A DNA stretch of 64,000 nucleotides. It comes from Micrococcaceae bacterium RIT 802 (lineage in GTDB: Bacteria; Actinomycetota; Actinomycetes; Actinomycetales; Micrococcaceae). The notes under the pieces are model-generated. The model made no database searches, was not told the origin of the DNA, and was given only the letters and a program-made list of their open reading frames with translations. Both the position numbers and the translations under genes were made by a program. Positions 4,748 to 17,555 of the stretch are shown here, piece after piece. The stretch lies in assembly GCA_016892645.1 (NCBI GenBank), contig JAFEMX010000001.1, positions 434,001-498,000 of the forward strand, read 5' to 3'. The stretch's first letter is position 1, and every line of letters begins with the position of its first letter.

Positions 4748-7700
4748 CTAGCCAGTTTCGTCAGGGGTGAAGGCCAAATCGACGAAGTAATTTGTCGATT
4801 TCCAGGTGGAAGTGGGAACCGTACCTCCCGCTGTACCATAGCGATATCGTCCGTTCGTCGACGTGGCGGCGACTGGTCCGATCGCCACGGATCCGAAATC
4901 GGTCGATTCGGCCCAGGTATAACTGCCGTGCGGGGCGTAGTAGCTAACCGTATAGGTTCCCGGGCCAAGGGGGACCGGATCGTCGAACAACGCGCCTTGC
5001 CAACCAGAAGCGGATTCTGATGTGAAGTCGGCCGTCGCCAGGACTTCCCCGCTGCTGGAGTAGATGTAGCCACGATGCGTCCCGGTGTTCTGTGGTGACT
5101 TGTCGAAGGCAATGCCGTACGCGGTGATTGGTTGGCTCACCTCGAGCTGGAGACCCAGCTCAACGGCGTCCGTCTCCCCTGAATAGGAGGAGTCCTTCGG
5201 AGCCCCTCCGGTGTGATCGAACAACCACGACACTCCGTCGGGGAAGCTGACGGCCGCACTAGGGGTTGGCGTGGGCGCAGCGCTAGCGGACGTCGAAACG
5301 GACGGAGCCGGCGAGGTCGGAGATTCTGTCGGAGTTGGAGATGATGTTGCAGTCGGCCCTCCGGAAGGCGAAGCAGCGGGGCTCGTCGGCTGCTCGGACG
5401 CCGAAGTGGGGATCGAATACAACAAGTCGGCAAAGTAGTTCGAGTTGTTCCAGGTCCCCGTGGGAAGGCCTCCCTCGGGGCCGTAGACGAAGCGGCCATT
5501 GGACGACTCAAGACTCAACGGGCCCGAAACGTGCCCCGAGGCGAAATCGCCGCCGGTGAACACATACCCGCCGCTTGGTGCGAAGTACGAGACCGCGAAG
5601 GTGCTGCCGGCTTCAATGGTGACCGGTTGGCTCAGGAATGCTGTCTGCCATCCGGTCGTTGTACCGGTCCCGAAAGTGACCGTGGCCAGGCGCTCCCCGT
5701 TGGACCCCCAGATCGTCCCGGTGTGCTTTCCTGTCCCCAGCGGTCCCCGGTAGTAGCGGATGGCGTGAATCTCGACTGTCTTGGAGGTGGACAACTGCAG
5801 CCCCAGTTCGACTGGTGCGTTGTCTTGAGGATCGGTCTGCGCGGGGGTGGTCTCTTCGCCCAGGAATGAGCTCAGAGGCTGTCCCTGACCAGCCGTCCGG
5901 AACGTCCAGGGCGCGATCTCCGCCGGACCCGAGTCGACTCCGGAGACGTTCTGGGGGGCAACGGTATAGACGTTGCCGTCGCCGAGGGCATCCGATGGGG
6001 TGAAGGTCAGCTTTTTGCTGTCGCCGGATACTGCCGTTGTTCCGTCCACGATGCCATCCGGCCCAGACACCTTCAGAACAGCCCCGGACTTGAGAGGCTC
6101 CGAGAAGGTAGCGGAAATCGGCGCCTGCTGATCCACACCGTCGGCTCCCGCAGCGGGCTGGCGCTCTGACACGGTGACAGGGGGCGCGTCCTCGACGAAA
6201 CGGACGTCTACCAGATAGCTGGAAGTTACTTGTCCGTCGGGGAATCCGTTGCCGTAAGTGAAGGAACCAGCCGCGAAACTCGTCCGCAGGGGGCCGCTGA
6301 CTGTGTCTGTCGAGAAAGCGCCTGGAATGGCCGGATAGGTCCCGTTGCTGCGGTACGCGGCGACGTATTCGACGCCAGGCTCGATGGCGACGGGATGGTC
6401 GAATTCCGCGTACTGCCAGCCGGAGACGGAATCGTCAGGGAACTGGACTTCGGAGAGGACTTCGCCGGAGGTGGTGTAGAGCCAGCCGGTATGGGGGCCG
6501 GTCTCGCCAGGACTCCGGTAGAACTTGATTCCGGTCACGGTGCCGCCGACGCTGCTCGAGAAGCGTGTTGCGAGCGTGACAGGGGTTCCGTCCTTGATGC
6601 TGTCGATAGCGGGAACGGTAGCGTCCTGGTACAGGCCGCACGGGCACACGGATGGGTCAACCGGTGCCATGACGGTTCGGAATCCCCAAGTACCGCCTCG
6701 TTGGACGCCGTTGCCAGCTTGGTCTAGCGCCGTCAATTGAGCCGTGTATTCCGTACCCTGGGCGAGTGGGGAGCCTGGGGTAAAGGTAGCGGTTCGGGTG
6801 TCCGGATCGTACGTCGTCGTTCCGGGAACCGTTTCGCCGTCGGCGTCGCTGAGTTTGATCCTGACGCTGGAAGCGGTCACCGGCTTCGACAGCACAGCGC
6901 TGATGGGAGTGGTCACCGGGACGCTGTGGGCGGTGTCCGACGGAGTCGGCTTGGCCGCCGAGAGCGGTATTGCATCCGAAGTCTCGAAAATGGCGTCGAC
7001 ATAGTAATTGGAACGTAGATAGGAGCTCTGCGGGAAACCGCCACCACTCCAGTACAAGCCCGATTCCGGGGCGTCGAAGCCACCGCCAACATGGAGGGGA
7101 GGGGCATTCACGCCACGGTAGGCGAAGTATTCAAGATCCGCGGAGTAGTGCCCATTAGGGGCGAAGTAGGAGACTACGTACTCCGTGCCGGCGGTCGCCT
7201 CGACTGGCTGGTCGAACGTCGCGCTCTGCCAACCTTCCGTCGACTCCTGGGTGAAGGTCACGGTCGCCAGCCGTTGGCCGTCGACCGACCAGAGTGTCCC
7301 AGTGTGGGTTCCCGTGTTGGCCTTGCTCTTGTAGAACCTCACGCCTGTGATATAGCCATCCGCCGTGGCGTTGAAGCGCAATCCCAATTCGACGGCAGAT
7401 CCGTCACCCGAATCGATCTGGCCGGGCACGGCCGAACCGAGTGCGCTGTACGGACCCTTGACGTTGATGGGGACCACGGTCCCCGTGCTGGAGTAGTTTC
7501 CGGAATCGTCGATGCCCCGAACGAGAAGTGAAGCATCACCGGAACCGTGTTGGATGATGCTGAAGTTCCATGTCGTGGTGCCTGCCGCCGGTTTCCAACT
7601 GGCACCGCCATCGGTGGAATATTCAACGCCAGCGACTTGCCCGGCCGCGTCGCGAGCCGTCCCCCTAATGGTAATAGTGTCGCCATTGGCGACTGTTCCT

Positions 7701-9370
7701 GATGGGGAGGAAGTGATGGCTACGGTGGGCGCAGTCTTGTCCGTGGAGGCCTGTGCTGCGACGAGTCCGTCCATGAGCGTCGAGGGCTGGGCTCCCATGT
7801 CGGCAAGGAGGTTTACCTCGGCTTGTTGCATCCGGGGATCTGCTGGCGCTCCGTCGCCGTCGTGCCATTCGTCCAAGCCCCAGGTCCACTGGACGCTGCC
7901 AGCAGAGAACACGAGTGCCCCGCTGGCGGCCTTGTACAAGGTGACGTGGTGCGTCGTAGTGCCTGCGGCCACTACATTGCCGAAGTCCTGCAAATACTCG
8001 GGTACGTCGCCGGTGGTCGTCGACAAATTGACCAGCCCCGGCGGTCGGAAGCCGTTTTCGAGCGGTTCATCGGATTCATATCCGACAGTATGAGGGGCGA
8101 GAGCTACTTTTTGACCGGAAGCAAGATCGTCCAGTGGAGTATGCTGCCACAATCGCATTTTGCCTTCCCGATCGTTAACGGTCACGGGAAGGTCCCCATT
8201 ATTCACGACGTAGGCGGTGCCAGTGAGTCCGTTTTCGGGAAGGCCGGCCCCATTGTCCGGGGAGGCGAATCGTGGGTCACGCCAAGTGCCCGTCCATTCA
8301 TCCTCGGGATCGATCTTGGCGTTCGACCATGTTTCCTTGTAGCTGACCAGCGTGCGGTAGTCGTTGCCACCGGTGGAGGACGGCTCGTAGCGGGTGTGCC
8401 AATAGACCTCGTTGCCGGAAAGAAATTGCAAGTTCACGCCGGAATCACGCGCGGCTTCCACGTTCTTGCGCTGGTTGCCGGACCAGTACTCGTCATGTCC
8501 GACCGAGAGGAACGTCTTGTGGTTGGTCAGGAGAGAGCCATATCGGTCCGTATCGACGCCGGAAAAGTAGCTGACGTCGTACCCATTGCGTTCGAGGAAC
8601 CGGACCATCGGGTATTCCGCGCCGAAGTAGAAGTCGCGGGCTTCAATGCCGGCCCTAGTGGCGAAGGGGCGGTTGTAGCTGATTTTGTATGCGCGTCCAT
8701 TGGCCGCACCAGAATAGAAGTCGGAACCACCGTAGGTGTTATAGGCGTGCCATGTAGGGTCCGAGGTCTGGAACAAGACGTCGGAGTGGCTCGACTCATC
8801 GCGGACGATGAAGGTGATGTGGCTGTCGTCTCCATTGTCCTTGCGGGTGAGCTTGGCGATGTAGACACCGGATACGGCGTCGTCGGGTACATTCCATGAG
8901 GCGGACACCGCCCACGTCCCGCAGTCGGTCAGTTCGGTCGACACGTCCTGGAGGCATTCGGGCTGCTTTTGCGGCAGGGCGGCGCTTGGTGTCACCGAGG
9001 CAATCTTGCGTGCGCCGAGGCCTTGGTACCAGCCGGTCCGGTAGATGTCGATGGAGTACGCCGAGGCGTCCGTGTCGATCTTGAAGTCGATCTTTCCGCC
9101 CACGTCGACGCTGATGTCTGTGGCGTAACCCTGAATCGACTCATCGCCGGCTCCGATGACCTCCCATTCCTGCCAAGGAGATCCCGGCTTGGAGTTTTCG
9201 CAGACGATGGGGTTCTCATCGGGTCCGCACGGGGTCGCGGCCGCAGACCCGGGCACGACCACTACCGGGATGACGAGCGTTGCGACGGCCATCAGGATTA
9301 TCCCGAGGCGGTGATGCCACCGAGGGGGCGTGCTGTGACGTTTGCTGGTGAAATCCTTCGTGGAAGACAC
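4748..9370 (-). CDS. Secreted dimethylformamidase-like protein with four DUF4082 modules
   Basis: 1540 residues. A signal peptide (Arg/His-rich start, hydrophobic residues about 22-43, then AAATPC) predicts export. Residues about 50-540 resemble the large-subunit-like domain of N,N-dimethylformamidase (N-terminal Ig-like part; then DPTWHAYNTYGGSDFY, FLSVGHDEYWS and FLSGNEVYWHTR). An Ig-like segment follows (about 550-645). Then come four DUF4082 modules (around 650-810, 925-1080, 1180-1330, 1385-1540), recognisable by paired 'TGTHTGTLWS...GW' and 'Y.VSYFAP.G.Y' phrases, with two Big_5-like domains between and a Ser/Thr/Pro linker (about 1335-1385). DUF4082 modules are often attached to secreted, possibly glycan-associated proteins. 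Whether the first domain is an amidase here is not shown. The operon partner at 9527 ends 156 nt upstream. Confidence 0.85.
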   Translation of the reverse strand: MSSTKDFTSKRHSTPPRWHHRLGIILMAVATLVIPVVVVPGSAAATPCGPDENPIVCENSKPGSPWQEWEVIGAGDESIQGYATDISVDVGGKIDFKIDTDASAYSIDIYRTGWYQGLGARKIASVTPSAALPQKQPECLQDVSTELTDCGTWAVSASWNVPDDAVSGVYIAKLTRKDNGDDSHITFIVRDESSHSDVLFQTSDPTWHAYNTYGGSDFYSGAANGRAYKISYNRPFATRAGIEARDFYFGAEYPMVRFLERNGYDVSYFSGVDTDRYGSLLTNHKTFLSVGHDEYWSGNQRKNVEAARDSGVNLQFLSGNEVYWHTRYEPSSTGGNDYRTLVSYKETWSNAKIDPEDEWTGTWRDPRFASPDNGAGLPENGLTGTAYVVNNGDLPVTVNDREGKMRLWQHTPLDDLASGQKVALAPHTVGYESDEPLENGFRPPGLVNLSTTTGDVPEYLQDFGNVVAAGTTTHHVTLYKAASGALVFSAGSVQWTWGLDEWHDGDGAPADPRMQQAEVNLLADMGAQPSTLMDGLVAAQASTDKTAPTVAITSSPSGTVANGDTITIRGTARDAAGQVAGVEYSTDGGASWKPAAGTTTWNFSIIQHGSGDASLLVRGIDDSGNYSSTGTVVPINVKGPYSALGSAVPGQIDSGDGSAVELGLRFNATADGYITGVRFYKSKANTGTHTGTLWSVDGQRLATVTFTQESTEGWQSATFDQPVEATAGTEYVVSYFAPNGHYSADLEYFAYRGVNAPPLHVGGGFDAPESGLYWSGGGFPQSSYLRSNYYVDAIFETSDAIPLSAAKPTPSDTAHSVPVTTPISAVLSKPVTASSVRIKLSDADGETVPGTTTYDPDTRTATFTPGSPLAQGTEYTAQLTALDQAGNGVQRGGTWGFRTVMAPVDPSVCPCGLYQDATVPAIDSIKDGTPVTLATRFSSSVGGTVTGIKFYRSPGETGPHTGWLYTTSGEVLSEVQFPDDSVSGWQYAEFDHPVAIEPGVEYVAAYRSNGTYPAIPGAFSTDTVSGPLRTSFAAGSFTYGNGFPDGQVTSSYLVDVRFVEDAPPVTVSERQPAAGADGVDQQAPISATFSEPLKSGAVLKVSGPDGIVDGTTAVSGDSKKLTFTPSDALGDGNVYTVAPQNVSGVDSGPAEIAPWTFRTAGQGQPLSSFLGEETTPAQTDPQDNAPVELGLQLSTSKTVEIHAIRYYRGPLGTGKHTGTIWGSNGERLATVTFGTGTTTGWQTAFLSQPVTIEAGSTFAVSYFAPSGGYVFTGGDFASGHVSGPLSLESSNGRFVYGPEGGLPTGTWNNSNYFADLLYSIPTSASEQPTSPAASPSGGPTATSSPTPTESPTSPAPSVSTSASAAPTPTPSAAVSFPDGVSWLFDHTGGAPKDSSYSGETDAVELGLQLEVSQPITAYGIAFDKSPQNTGTHRGYIYSSSGEVLATADFTSESASGWQGALFDDPVPLGPGTYTVSYYAPHGSYTWAESTDFGSVAIGPVAATSTNGRYRYGTAGGTVPTSTWKSTNYFVDLAFTPDETG

Positions 9371-15366: not shown

Positions 15367-15948
15367 ATGGCAAGCAACACCTGGCTCGTAGCCGGGCTCG
15401 GGAATCCCGGGCCCGGCTACGCCCATAACAGACACAATGTGGGCCAGATGGTCCTCGACGAACTCGCCGGCCGCATCGGCGGATCCTTCAAGTCCCACAA
15501 GGCCAACGCGCAGGTCCTTGAAGGGCGCCTGGGCATCGGCGGGCCGCGGCTCGTGCTGGCCAAACCCATGACGTACATGAACGTCTCGGGAGGGCCGGTC
15601 GCGGGACTGGCACGCTTCTTCGACGTCGATCCGCTGCACATTGTTGCGATTCATGACGAAATCGATATTCCCTTCAACACCATCAAGCTGAAGCTCGGCG
15701 GGGGAGAGGGCGGGCACAACGGCCTCCGTGATATCTCCAAGGCCCTGTCCACGAAGGACTACTACCGGGTAAGGGTCGGCGTCGGCCGCCCGCCGGGACG
15801 GATGGACACCGCGGATTTCGTGCTCCGCGATTTCGGGACCACCGAGCGCAGGGAGCTGCCGTTCCTCATCGGCGACGCCGCAGACGCCGCGGAACTGCTG
15901 GTCCGCGAGGACCTGCAGGCCGCCCAGCAGAAATTCCACGGGGCCTAG
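15367..15948 (+). CDS. pth: Peptidyl-tRNA hydrolase
   Basis: 193 residues, usual length. It cleaves the ester bond of stalled peptidyl-tRNAs to recycle tRNA. Family motifs are GLGNPGPGYAHNRHNVG (catalytic His and Asn), KPMTYMNVSG and GGGEGGHNGLRDI. It follows rplY closely on the same strand. Its stop is followed by the promoter-terminator cassette at 15969-16088. Confidence 0.97.
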   Translation: MASNTWLVAGLGNPGPGYAHNRHNVGQMVLDELAGRIGGSFKSHKANAQVLEGRLGIGGPRLVLAKPMTYMNVSGGPVAGLARFFDVDPLHIVAIHDEIDIPFNTIKLKLGGGEGGHNGLRDISKALSTKDYYRVRVGVGRPPGRMDTADFVLRDFGTTERRELPFLIGDAADAAELLVREDLQAAQQKFHGA

Positions 15949-15968
15949 TCCACGGCCCGTGGTCGGAA

Positions 15969-15998
15969 TTGTTGTTTGACAACAACTTCACATACTAT
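15969..15998 (+). promoter_or_regulatory. Palindromic operator overlapping a leaderless-type promoter
   Basis: TTGTTGTTTGACAACAA (15969-15985) is a perfect inverted repeat: 7-bp arms around TTG. The -10 candidate TACTAT (15993-15998) is followed by 6 nt and then an ATG at 16005, the pattern of leaderless actinobacterial transcripts. TTGTTG at 15969 is 18 bp from this -10; TTGACA at 15976 is only 11 bp away. The palindrome covers the promoter, so a dimeric repressor (for instance MarR or TetR type) is a reasonable inference. Confidence 0.55.
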
Positions 15999-16004
15999 CT
16001 ATCC

Positions 16005-16037
16005 ATGCCTTACGGCTCCCTTATGCGGGGCCGGTAG
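16005..16037 (+). other. Ten-codon ORF ending inside a terminator stem (candidate leader peptide)
   Basis: The ORF reads MPYGSLMRGR then TAG. Its last codon and stop (CGG TAG) lie in the 5' arm of the hairpin at 16031-16079, so a ribosome stopped at the end would mask that arm. It begins 6 nt after a TACTAT -10, so the message could be leaderless. Translation and function are not shown. Confidence 0.45.
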
Positions 16038-16088
16038 CGGGCGGCCTCTGAGACTGGGCCACCCCCATCCCGCTACCGGTCCCTTTTT
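16031..16088 (+). terminator. Intrinsic terminator or attenuator between pth and the cysteine desulfurase gene
   Basis: The arms CCGGTAGCGGG (16031-16041) and CCCGCTACCGG (16069-16079) form a perfect 11-bp stem; five T residues follow at 16084-16088. The 27-nt loop can form a small GGCC hairpin. It may end the pth transcript, end a short RNA from the promoter at 15993, or attenuate the gene downstream. Confidence 0.8.
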
Positions 16089-16229
16089 CGTGCCCGGGGA
16101 CACCCGCGGTAAGGCGTGACTCACATGAACCGGCCCCGTCGTGCGTGCGATCATTAGGTCATGGATTCGTTGCGGAATCCACGGGGCCTGTGCCCCGACG
16201 ACCATCCCCGATCCAAGGACGCGACGTAC

Positions 16230-17555
16230 GTGGAAACAGTTACCGGACCCCGCGGGTCAGCCGAAGCCGAACCGGCACTGACGCCGCTGGACGACACGGA
16301 AGTGCGCCGCCTGCGCGGTGACTTCACCCTGCTGGAACGGACCGTGAACTCCGTGCCCCTGGTCTATCTCGACTCCGGGGCGACGTCGCAGAAGCCCCAA
16401 TCGGTCCTGGACACCGAGCAGCACTTCTACGAGAACTTCAACGCGGCCGTCCACCGTGGCGCGCATACCCTCGCTGTCGAGGCCACCGAGATCTACGAGG
16501 AGGCCCGCGAGAAGACCGCACGGTTCATCGGGGCCGGACCCGACGAGGTCGTTTGGACCTCGAACGCGACCGAGGCATTGAACCTGCTGACCTACTCCTT
16601 CTCCAACGCCAGCGCCGGCAGGGGCGGGGAGGCAGCCCGTCGGTTCGCGTTGGGCCCGGGCGACGAGATCCTGGTGACCGAGCTCGAGCACCACGCCAAC
16701 CTCATCCCGTGGCAGGAGCTCGCCTTCCGCACCGGAGCGAGCCTGAAGTACATCCCGGTCGACGCCGACGGCGCGTTGCGGATGGACCTGGCCGCGGACC
16801 TTGTCGGCCCGCGCACCCGCGTCCTCGCCTTCACCCACGTCTCCAACGTGCTGGGAACCGTGGTCGATGTCGCCGCCCTGGTGGAGCTGGCCCGCGCCGT
16901 CGGCGCCCTGACGGTCCTCGACGGCTGCCAGTCGGTCCCGCACCTGCCCGTGGACGTGAAGGCACTGGACGTGGACTTCATGGCCTTCTCCGGCCACAAG
17001 ATGCTCGGCCCCACCGGCATCGGCGTCCTGTACGGTCGGCGGGAACTGCTCGACGCCATGCCCCCCTTCCTCACCGGCGGCTCCATGATCACCACCGTGA
17101 CCATGGAGCGCGCCGAATTCCTCGAGGCGCCGACACGCTTCGAGGCGGGCACGCAGCGGATCTCCCAGGCCGTCGCGCTGGCTGCGGCGATCGACTACCT
17201 GGACGAGGTCGGCATGGGCCGCATCGCCGCCTGGGAGGAACACCTCGGCCGGCGTCTGGCCGCCGGGCTGGCCTCGATCCCCGGTGTGCGCCAACTCGGA
17301 CCGGCCGGAGCCGCTCGGATCGGGACCGCCACCATCGACGTGCCCGGCGTCCACCCCCACGATGTCGGGCAGTTCCTTGACAGCCGCGGCGTCGCGGTGC
17401 GCGTCGGGCATCACTGCGCCCAGCCGCTGCACCGCGCCCTGGGTGTCACCGCGAGCACGCGGGCAAGCACCTACCTCTACAACACGGACGACGACGTCGA
17501 TGCCTTCCTGGGCGCGGTGGCCGACGTGCGCGGGTTCTTCGGAGTCGGCGCATGA
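16230..17555 (+). CDS. sufS: SufS-type cysteine desulfurase
   Basis: 441 residues from the GTG at 16230 (AAGGA 10 nt upstream); an in-frame ATG at 16161 has no well-spaced ribosome site and would add 23 residues. This PLP enzyme takes sulfur from cysteine as a persulfide for Fe-S assembly. Visible features: VYLDSGATSQKPQ at the start of the fold, TSNATEALNLL and ELEHHANLIPWQ, the PLP lysine in FSGHKMLGPTG, the catalytic Cys in GHHCAQPLH, and the YLYNTDDDVDAF C-terminal motif. Its TGA overlaps the ATG of sufU (ATGA), so the pair is coupled. It stands apart from any full suf operon in this window. Confidence 0.92.
   Translation: METVTGPRGSAEAEPALTPLDDTEVRRLRGDFTLLERTVNSVPLVYLDSGATSQKPQSVLDTEQHFYENFNAAVHRGAHTLAVEATEIYEEAREKTARFIGAGPDEVVWTSNATEALNLLTYSFSNASAGRGGEAARRFALGPGDEILVTELEHHANLIPWQELAFRTGASLKYIPVDADGALRMDLAADLVGPRTRVLAFTHVSNVLGTVVDVAALVELARAVGALTVLDGCQSVPHLPVDVKALDVDFMAFSGHKMLGPTGIGVLYGRRELLDAMPPFLTGGSMITTVTMERAEFLEAPTRFEAGTQRISQAVALAAAIDYLDEVGMGRIAAWEEHLGRRLAAGLASIPGVRQLGPAGAARIGTATIDVPGVHPHDVGQFLDSRGVAVRVGHHCAQPLHRALGVTASTRASTYLYNTDDDVDAFLGAVADVRGFFGVGA

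Follow-up and report, generated by a model that had tools for sequence, protein, structure and literature searches.

The DNA between pth and sufS in a Micrococcaceae genome (G000; 3.87 Mb) holds a promoter-like sequence, a ten-codon open reading frame and a terminator, which raises the question of whether this segment is a peptide-sensing attenuator or an RNA element in its own right. The region studied, here called the window, is the stretch of 64,000 nucleotides at C1 434001-498000. All the parts listed in the initial annotation are present: a perfect palindrome with 7-bp arms, a TACTAT hexamer followed after 6 nt by ATG, the frame MPYGSLMRGR closed by TAG, and a terminator whose 5' arm contains the last codon, CGG, and this stop (Table 1). 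A ribosome stalled at the Arg-x-Arg end of the peptide had been proposed to permit readthrough into sufS-sufU, with a simple small RNA as the fallback. The fallback is the reading that our analysis supports.

Table 1. Features of the class-1 element and its flanking genes, in window coordinates.
Feature	Position	Strand	Basis or remark
pth (peptidyl-tRNA hydrolase)	15367..15948	+	ORF; constant upstream neighbour of the RNA
Palindrome TTGTTGT-TTG-ACAACAA, perfect 7-bp arms	15969..15985	+	contains -35-like TTGTTG/TTGTTT
-10-like TACTAT	15993..15998	+	predicted transcription start ~16004-16006
Predicted small RNA, class 1, ~85 nt	16005..16088	+	comparison and fold
ORF MPYGSLMRGR-stop	16005..16037	+	judged incidental, not a gene; not conserved
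P1, small 5' hairpin GCC-UUAC-GGC	16007..16016	+	fold; pairs kept in 74% of cells of an imperfect alignment
P2, alternative hairpin CGGCUCCC/GGGGCCG	16013..16033	+	competes with P1 and the terminator foot
Terminator hairpin T	16027..16083	+	outer stem 16027-16041/16069-16083; inner stem 16043-16047/16056-16060
Apical 8-nt loop CUGAGACU	16048..16055	+	GAGACU invariant in 43 aligned copies
C-rich internal loop ACCCCCAU	16061..16068	+	conserved; CCCCCA also in class 2 and the g9 hairpin
Terminator U tract (TTTTT)	16084..16088	+	kept in most class-1 copies
sufS, next gene after the RNA in the window	16161..17555	+	ORF

The fold of positions 16003-16090 has a predicted energy of -43.9 kcal/mol (z = -4.1), and none of 200 shuffled sequences was equally stable. 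The outer stem is built from two arms of 15 nt that are 93% complementary, with one G-U pair, and T5 follows directly. The 27-nt loop of this terminator holds a second hairpin, GGCCU-CUGAGACU-GGGCC, followed by the unpaired stretch ACCCCCAU. This inner hairpin and the C-rich internal loop, which the initial annotation overlooked, are the heart of the element.

A blastn search with positions 15955-16095 gave matches in 58 of 295 Micrococcaceae genomes at E < 1e-5, and a covariance model located the hairpin in nine genera. The alignment of 43 distinct copies yielded a single consensus hairpin, in whose outer stem 10 of 15 pairs showed double compensatory changes and 99.1% of the cells were paired. 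RNAalifold returned 20 pairs, 10 of them with double changes, and the covariation score was 0.331; shuffles scored 0.178, and slid structures did not exceed 0.134. The mean identity was 92% in the apical module, which has as its consensus the 8-nt loop CYGAGACU and the internal loop ACCCCCAU; the stem arms averaged 68-77% and the flanking DNA 26-28%. The pattern of substitutions indicates that the hairpin structure is under selection at the RNA level and that its tip is nearly invariant. Among 84,980 species genomes, the exact 26-mer of the tip, GGCCTCYGAGACTGGGCCACCCCCAT, turned up in 36 contigs with a single occurrence in each, and all these matches were in Arthrobacter, Paeniglutamicibacter or uncultured Micrococcaceae. 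Searches at the level of the order and the class returned plain terminators or chance-level matches only, and an occurrence of the family outside the Micrococcaceae was rejected.

The hairpin might merely end the rplY-pth transcript, or be a repeat at the DNA level, and have no function as an RNA. In favour of this view, the site is a strong terminator immediately after pth. However, a plain terminator has no need of an invariant tip, identity here is higher in the loop than in the stem, the stems change by compensation, and a promoter-like sequence separates pth from the hairpin. The single site per genome and the lack of matches to the 26-mer in viral contigs, phages and plasmids argue against a mobile element or repeat. 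We consider a mere terminator or repeat highly improbable. No Rfam 15 family matched at or above its gathering threshold, the hits being chance matches mostly to microRNA models, and our literature searches found no description of the class-1 RNA.

Downstream of pth in genus g9 (L319 in genome G010) we observed a divergent class-1-like hairpin that the covariance model had missed. It keeps CCCCCAUUCCC in the absence of the GAGAC loop, so that of all parts of the hairpin the C-rich loop is the one most persistently kept.

The reading frame did not share the conservation of the hairpin. A start codon near the predicted transcription start combined with a stop codon in the 5' arm was found in 6 of 40 distinct copies, and the ATG form, MPYGSL(M/K)RGR, in two, both from the genus of this genome. 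RGR-stop is a translation of the stem sequence GGGGCCGGTAG and recurs wherever the stem has that sequence; the small frame is thus, judged on the comparison of copies, a by-product of the stem. A ribosome-mediated attenuator in which MPYGSLMRGR senses arginine or macrolides could claim that the frame, the stop in the 5' arm and the RGR are all real, and that GTG frames ending in RGR occur in two copies from genus g22. With 34 of the 40 copies lacking such a frame, the RGR derived from the stem and no sensing gene kept downstream, we give this explanation almost no chance, and a leader peptide was ruled out as a candidate by the absence of frame conservation: a kept hairpin with an unkept frame is the very outcome that the initial annotation had named as contradicting its proposal. 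As in trp-type and erm-type peptide attenuators, a gene is preceded by hairpins that would exclude one another (1:2, 2:3, 3:4); the class-1 element differs from them in having no conserved leader peptide and a variable downstream gene. That the element is a functional non-coding RNA rather than a peptide attenuator is very likely.

Synteny links the RNA to its upstream neighbour. A pth homologue adjoined it on the same strand in 58 of the 60 loci examined, while on the other side 31 loci had a LAL-type LuxR regulator and 23 had sufS as the next gene; in 6, neither of these was detected. The changing downstream gene ruled out a dedicated suf attenuator. The class-1 RNA is by gene order tied to the position of pth, whichever gene comes next. 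A cis regulator would be expected to move with its target gene; this element keeps to pth and is, in its synteny, autonomous. Class 1 is apparently absent from one sister genome (G002), an uninformative result since pth is missing from that assembly.

Evidence for a separate promoter came from the aligned upstream regions. A TAnnnT hexamer ending 30-42 nt before the equivalent of position 16036 was present in 27 of 40 copies (mean 7.3 and maximum 14 in 300 shuffles), and 23 of the 40 had in addition a TTG at a spacer of 15-19 nt from this hexamer. The near-fixed position of the -10-like hexamer implies that transcription would start at P1. Part of genus g8 has no -10. In a strict consensus scan no sigma-70 site passed, owing to the weak -35. 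The palindrome has no conserved counterpart in relatives, not even in the sister genome (TTTTGTTTGACAACAATTT); the TTG at -35 spacing is kept. Two properties by which an autonomous sRNA is recognized are present: a promoter of its own and an intrinsic terminator between two genes, both predicted from the sequence only, and a secondary structure kept by compensatory changes. We conclude that the element is probably an autonomous sRNA.

The main rival is a cis attenuator or riboswitch that works with no peptide. The segment upstream of the terminator (GGCYCC) can pair with the terminator foot to form P2, which would act as antiterminator against T, readthrough being decided by whatever binds the conserved tip, be it a factor or a small molecule. 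P1, P2 and T cannot form together, and P2 is conserved in most copies of class 1, with a mean helix of 6.0 bp as compared to 3.1 bp in shuffles. Stepwise folding of the window RNA proceeded in the order P1, P2 (-13.6 kcal/mol) and T, and in many genomes copies of a related RNA described below precede exopolysaccharide genes by 20-70 nt. Against this stand the constant upstream and changing downstream gene of class 1, and no Rfam riboswitch model matched. Furthermore, T totals -38.8 kcal/mol and its upper part (-15.2 kcal/mol) forms freely despite P2. In our view P2 is rather a step on the folding path than an antiterminator with real effect, because it covers only the lowest part of T and is lost in one subgroup that keeps T. 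Attenuation of this kind is, in our estimate, unlikely.

The covariance model R1 returned further copies in many genomes at E values of 1e-10 to 1e-5, which we refer to as class 2. The outer and inner stems are shared with class 1, the inner one covarying here too, and so are the loop CYGAGACC and CCCCCAG. The class-2 site is mostly flanked by LAL-LuxR genes on one side and, on the other, by the gene for a bacterial sugar transferase (Pfam Bac_transf; exopolysaccharide priming transferase); other sites precede a DUF4082/DMFA2_C surface protein, sufS or mfd. With model R2, class 2 was identified in the present genome at C1:414157-414229 (L251:8158-8230), where it separates three LAL genes from the sugar transferase gene, 36 kb upstream of the class-1 copy and 20 kb to the left of the window. 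Outside the Micrococcaceae, R2 gave chance-level scores only. A reading of class 2 as protein-coding was rejected, as the frames disagree and substitutions, judged by eye, do not look biased towards third positions. In two loci, two class-2 RNAs were seen in tandem before the same sugar transferase gene (L200:8487-8700 in G077; L195:6969-7448 in G116).

The window also encodes a 1540-aa protein (4748-9370, minus strand) with a DMFA2_C domain, four DUF4082 domains and Ig-like domains. This protein probably belongs to the polysaccharide locus, because a homologue directly follows the class-2 RNA in genus g16 (L124).

Upstream of class-2 copies we found the hexamer GGTCTC, the exact complement of the loop, in contexts such as GAAGGTCTCACAATG and as tandem copies in two genomes; examples of GGTCTC(A/G) are in L153, L165, L174 and L180. 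The hexamer accompanied 27 of 54 GAGAC-bearing copies and none of 13 copies that have no GAGAC, a count confounded by phylogeny; a rough estimate from length gives an expectation of about 6%. GGTCTC may be an RNA partner of the loop, or a DNA operator read in both directions, for example for LAL regulators. In genus g10 (L125, L127, L131), the region upstream of class 2 displays a palindrome-like CGAGTAC...ACTCGTGCC block, perhaps a putative LuxR-type binding site. One speculative scheme would treat the tip (CYGAGACY loop plus CCCCCA) as a new RNA module used at two points of a single network, in the sRNA beside pth and in the exopolysaccharide leader. The leader loop would pair with GGUCUC some 65-180 nt upstream, and the sRNA would compete in trans and so set capsule or slime production; we regard this as rather improbable.

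A further possibility is that class 1 serves as a decoy: it would bind, and so titrate, whatever protein recognizes the class-2 element at the exopolysaccharide genes. In favour of this, the architecture and the GAGAC and CCCCCA motifs are common to both classes, and R2 matched in all 30 class-1 genomes tried, more than once in 29 of them. Yet the GAGAC loop is gone from class 2 in the genus of this genome and in g22, with CCCCCCAG kept, whereas class 1 retains GAGAC. The best candidate for the protein by analogy would be a LoaP-type NusG paralogue. LoaP-bound leader hairpins of polyketide and polysaccharide operons resemble class 2 in that a biosynthetic cluster is preceded by a hairpin plus terminator. 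The LoaP hairpin is of the UNCG type (PMC12691694), and the Micrococcaceae tested have a single NusG, with one NusG-domain protein in each of 24 genomes; a LoaP target was rejected on this ground. A decoy is, overall, very unlikely.

Comparison with other known RNAs did not reveal an identity. Ms1, a 6S-like RNA, is also an actinobacterial non-coding RNA gene fixed by synteny, and is much longer than the class-1 RNA. Arthrobacter is among the genera listed with Ms1 (PMC9130861). Ms1 adjoins a HAD hydrolase gene, whereas class 1 adjoins pth, and Ms1 was rejected on this difference in synteny. An ANTAR-target RNA, which is defined by two hexaloop hairpins with A1/G4, was rejected: in alignments inspected by eye the P1 and P2 loops did not display this pattern, and there was no Rfam hit. 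There is a likeness in design to 6C/B11 (RF01066), a small actinobacterial RNA with C-rich unpaired stretches in its hairpins, whose B11 loops pair with G-rich ribosome-binding sites in mycobacteria (PMC10470900). Class 1 differs in its synteny and in its unpaired parts, namely one C5 internal loop, shorter than the C6 loops of 6C, and a GAGAC loop, both held within the terminator. The 6C model had no match in the window or in the whole genome, and a recognizable 6C was missing from 18 of the 19 Micrococcaceae genomes tried, the remaining one being sub-threshold. This match scored 46.3 of the required 47 bits (L355; G007:C1:516878-516953), in a genome where neither class was found.

The explanation that we favour, with somewhat more than even confidence, is that positions 16005-16088 form an autonomous Micrococcaceae sRNA gene with its own promoter, the small hairpin P1 at the 5' end, a terminator that doubles as functional domain, and action in trans through its loops. 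The RNA would be transcribed from its own promoter and would present the single-stranded ACCCCCAU and the GAGAC loop to mRNAs. In the simplest mode it would mask G-rich ribosome-binding sites on the pattern of 6C/B11 and its C-rich loops, a mechanism that we hold to be somewhat less likely than not. Its regulon is plausibly connected with the LAL-LuxR/exopolysaccharide system nearby, the site of the second RNA of the same build. A search for AGTCTCRG-N3-14-ATG in 12 genomes gave 146 sites as compared to 99 for the reversed-pattern control, a slight excess in which no conserved target was recognized by eye. Against the favoured explanation count, besides this search, the weak -35 and the -10 missing in part of g8, that the C-rich stretch is an internal loop within a very stable hairpin and that the conserved P2 hints at a switching role for which a plain sRNA has no need.

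To our knowledge, almost no small RNAs have been described in Arthrobacter-like bacteria. The present element represents a new and well-supported structured RNA family for this group, from which a recognizable 6C seems to be missing. It also illustrates that a convincing-looking leader peptide, here an RGR beside a terminator, can be a by-product of stem sequence. Finally, an RNA linked to the LAL-LuxR/exopolysaccharide locus offers a testable entry into the control of surface polysaccharides in soil bacteria.
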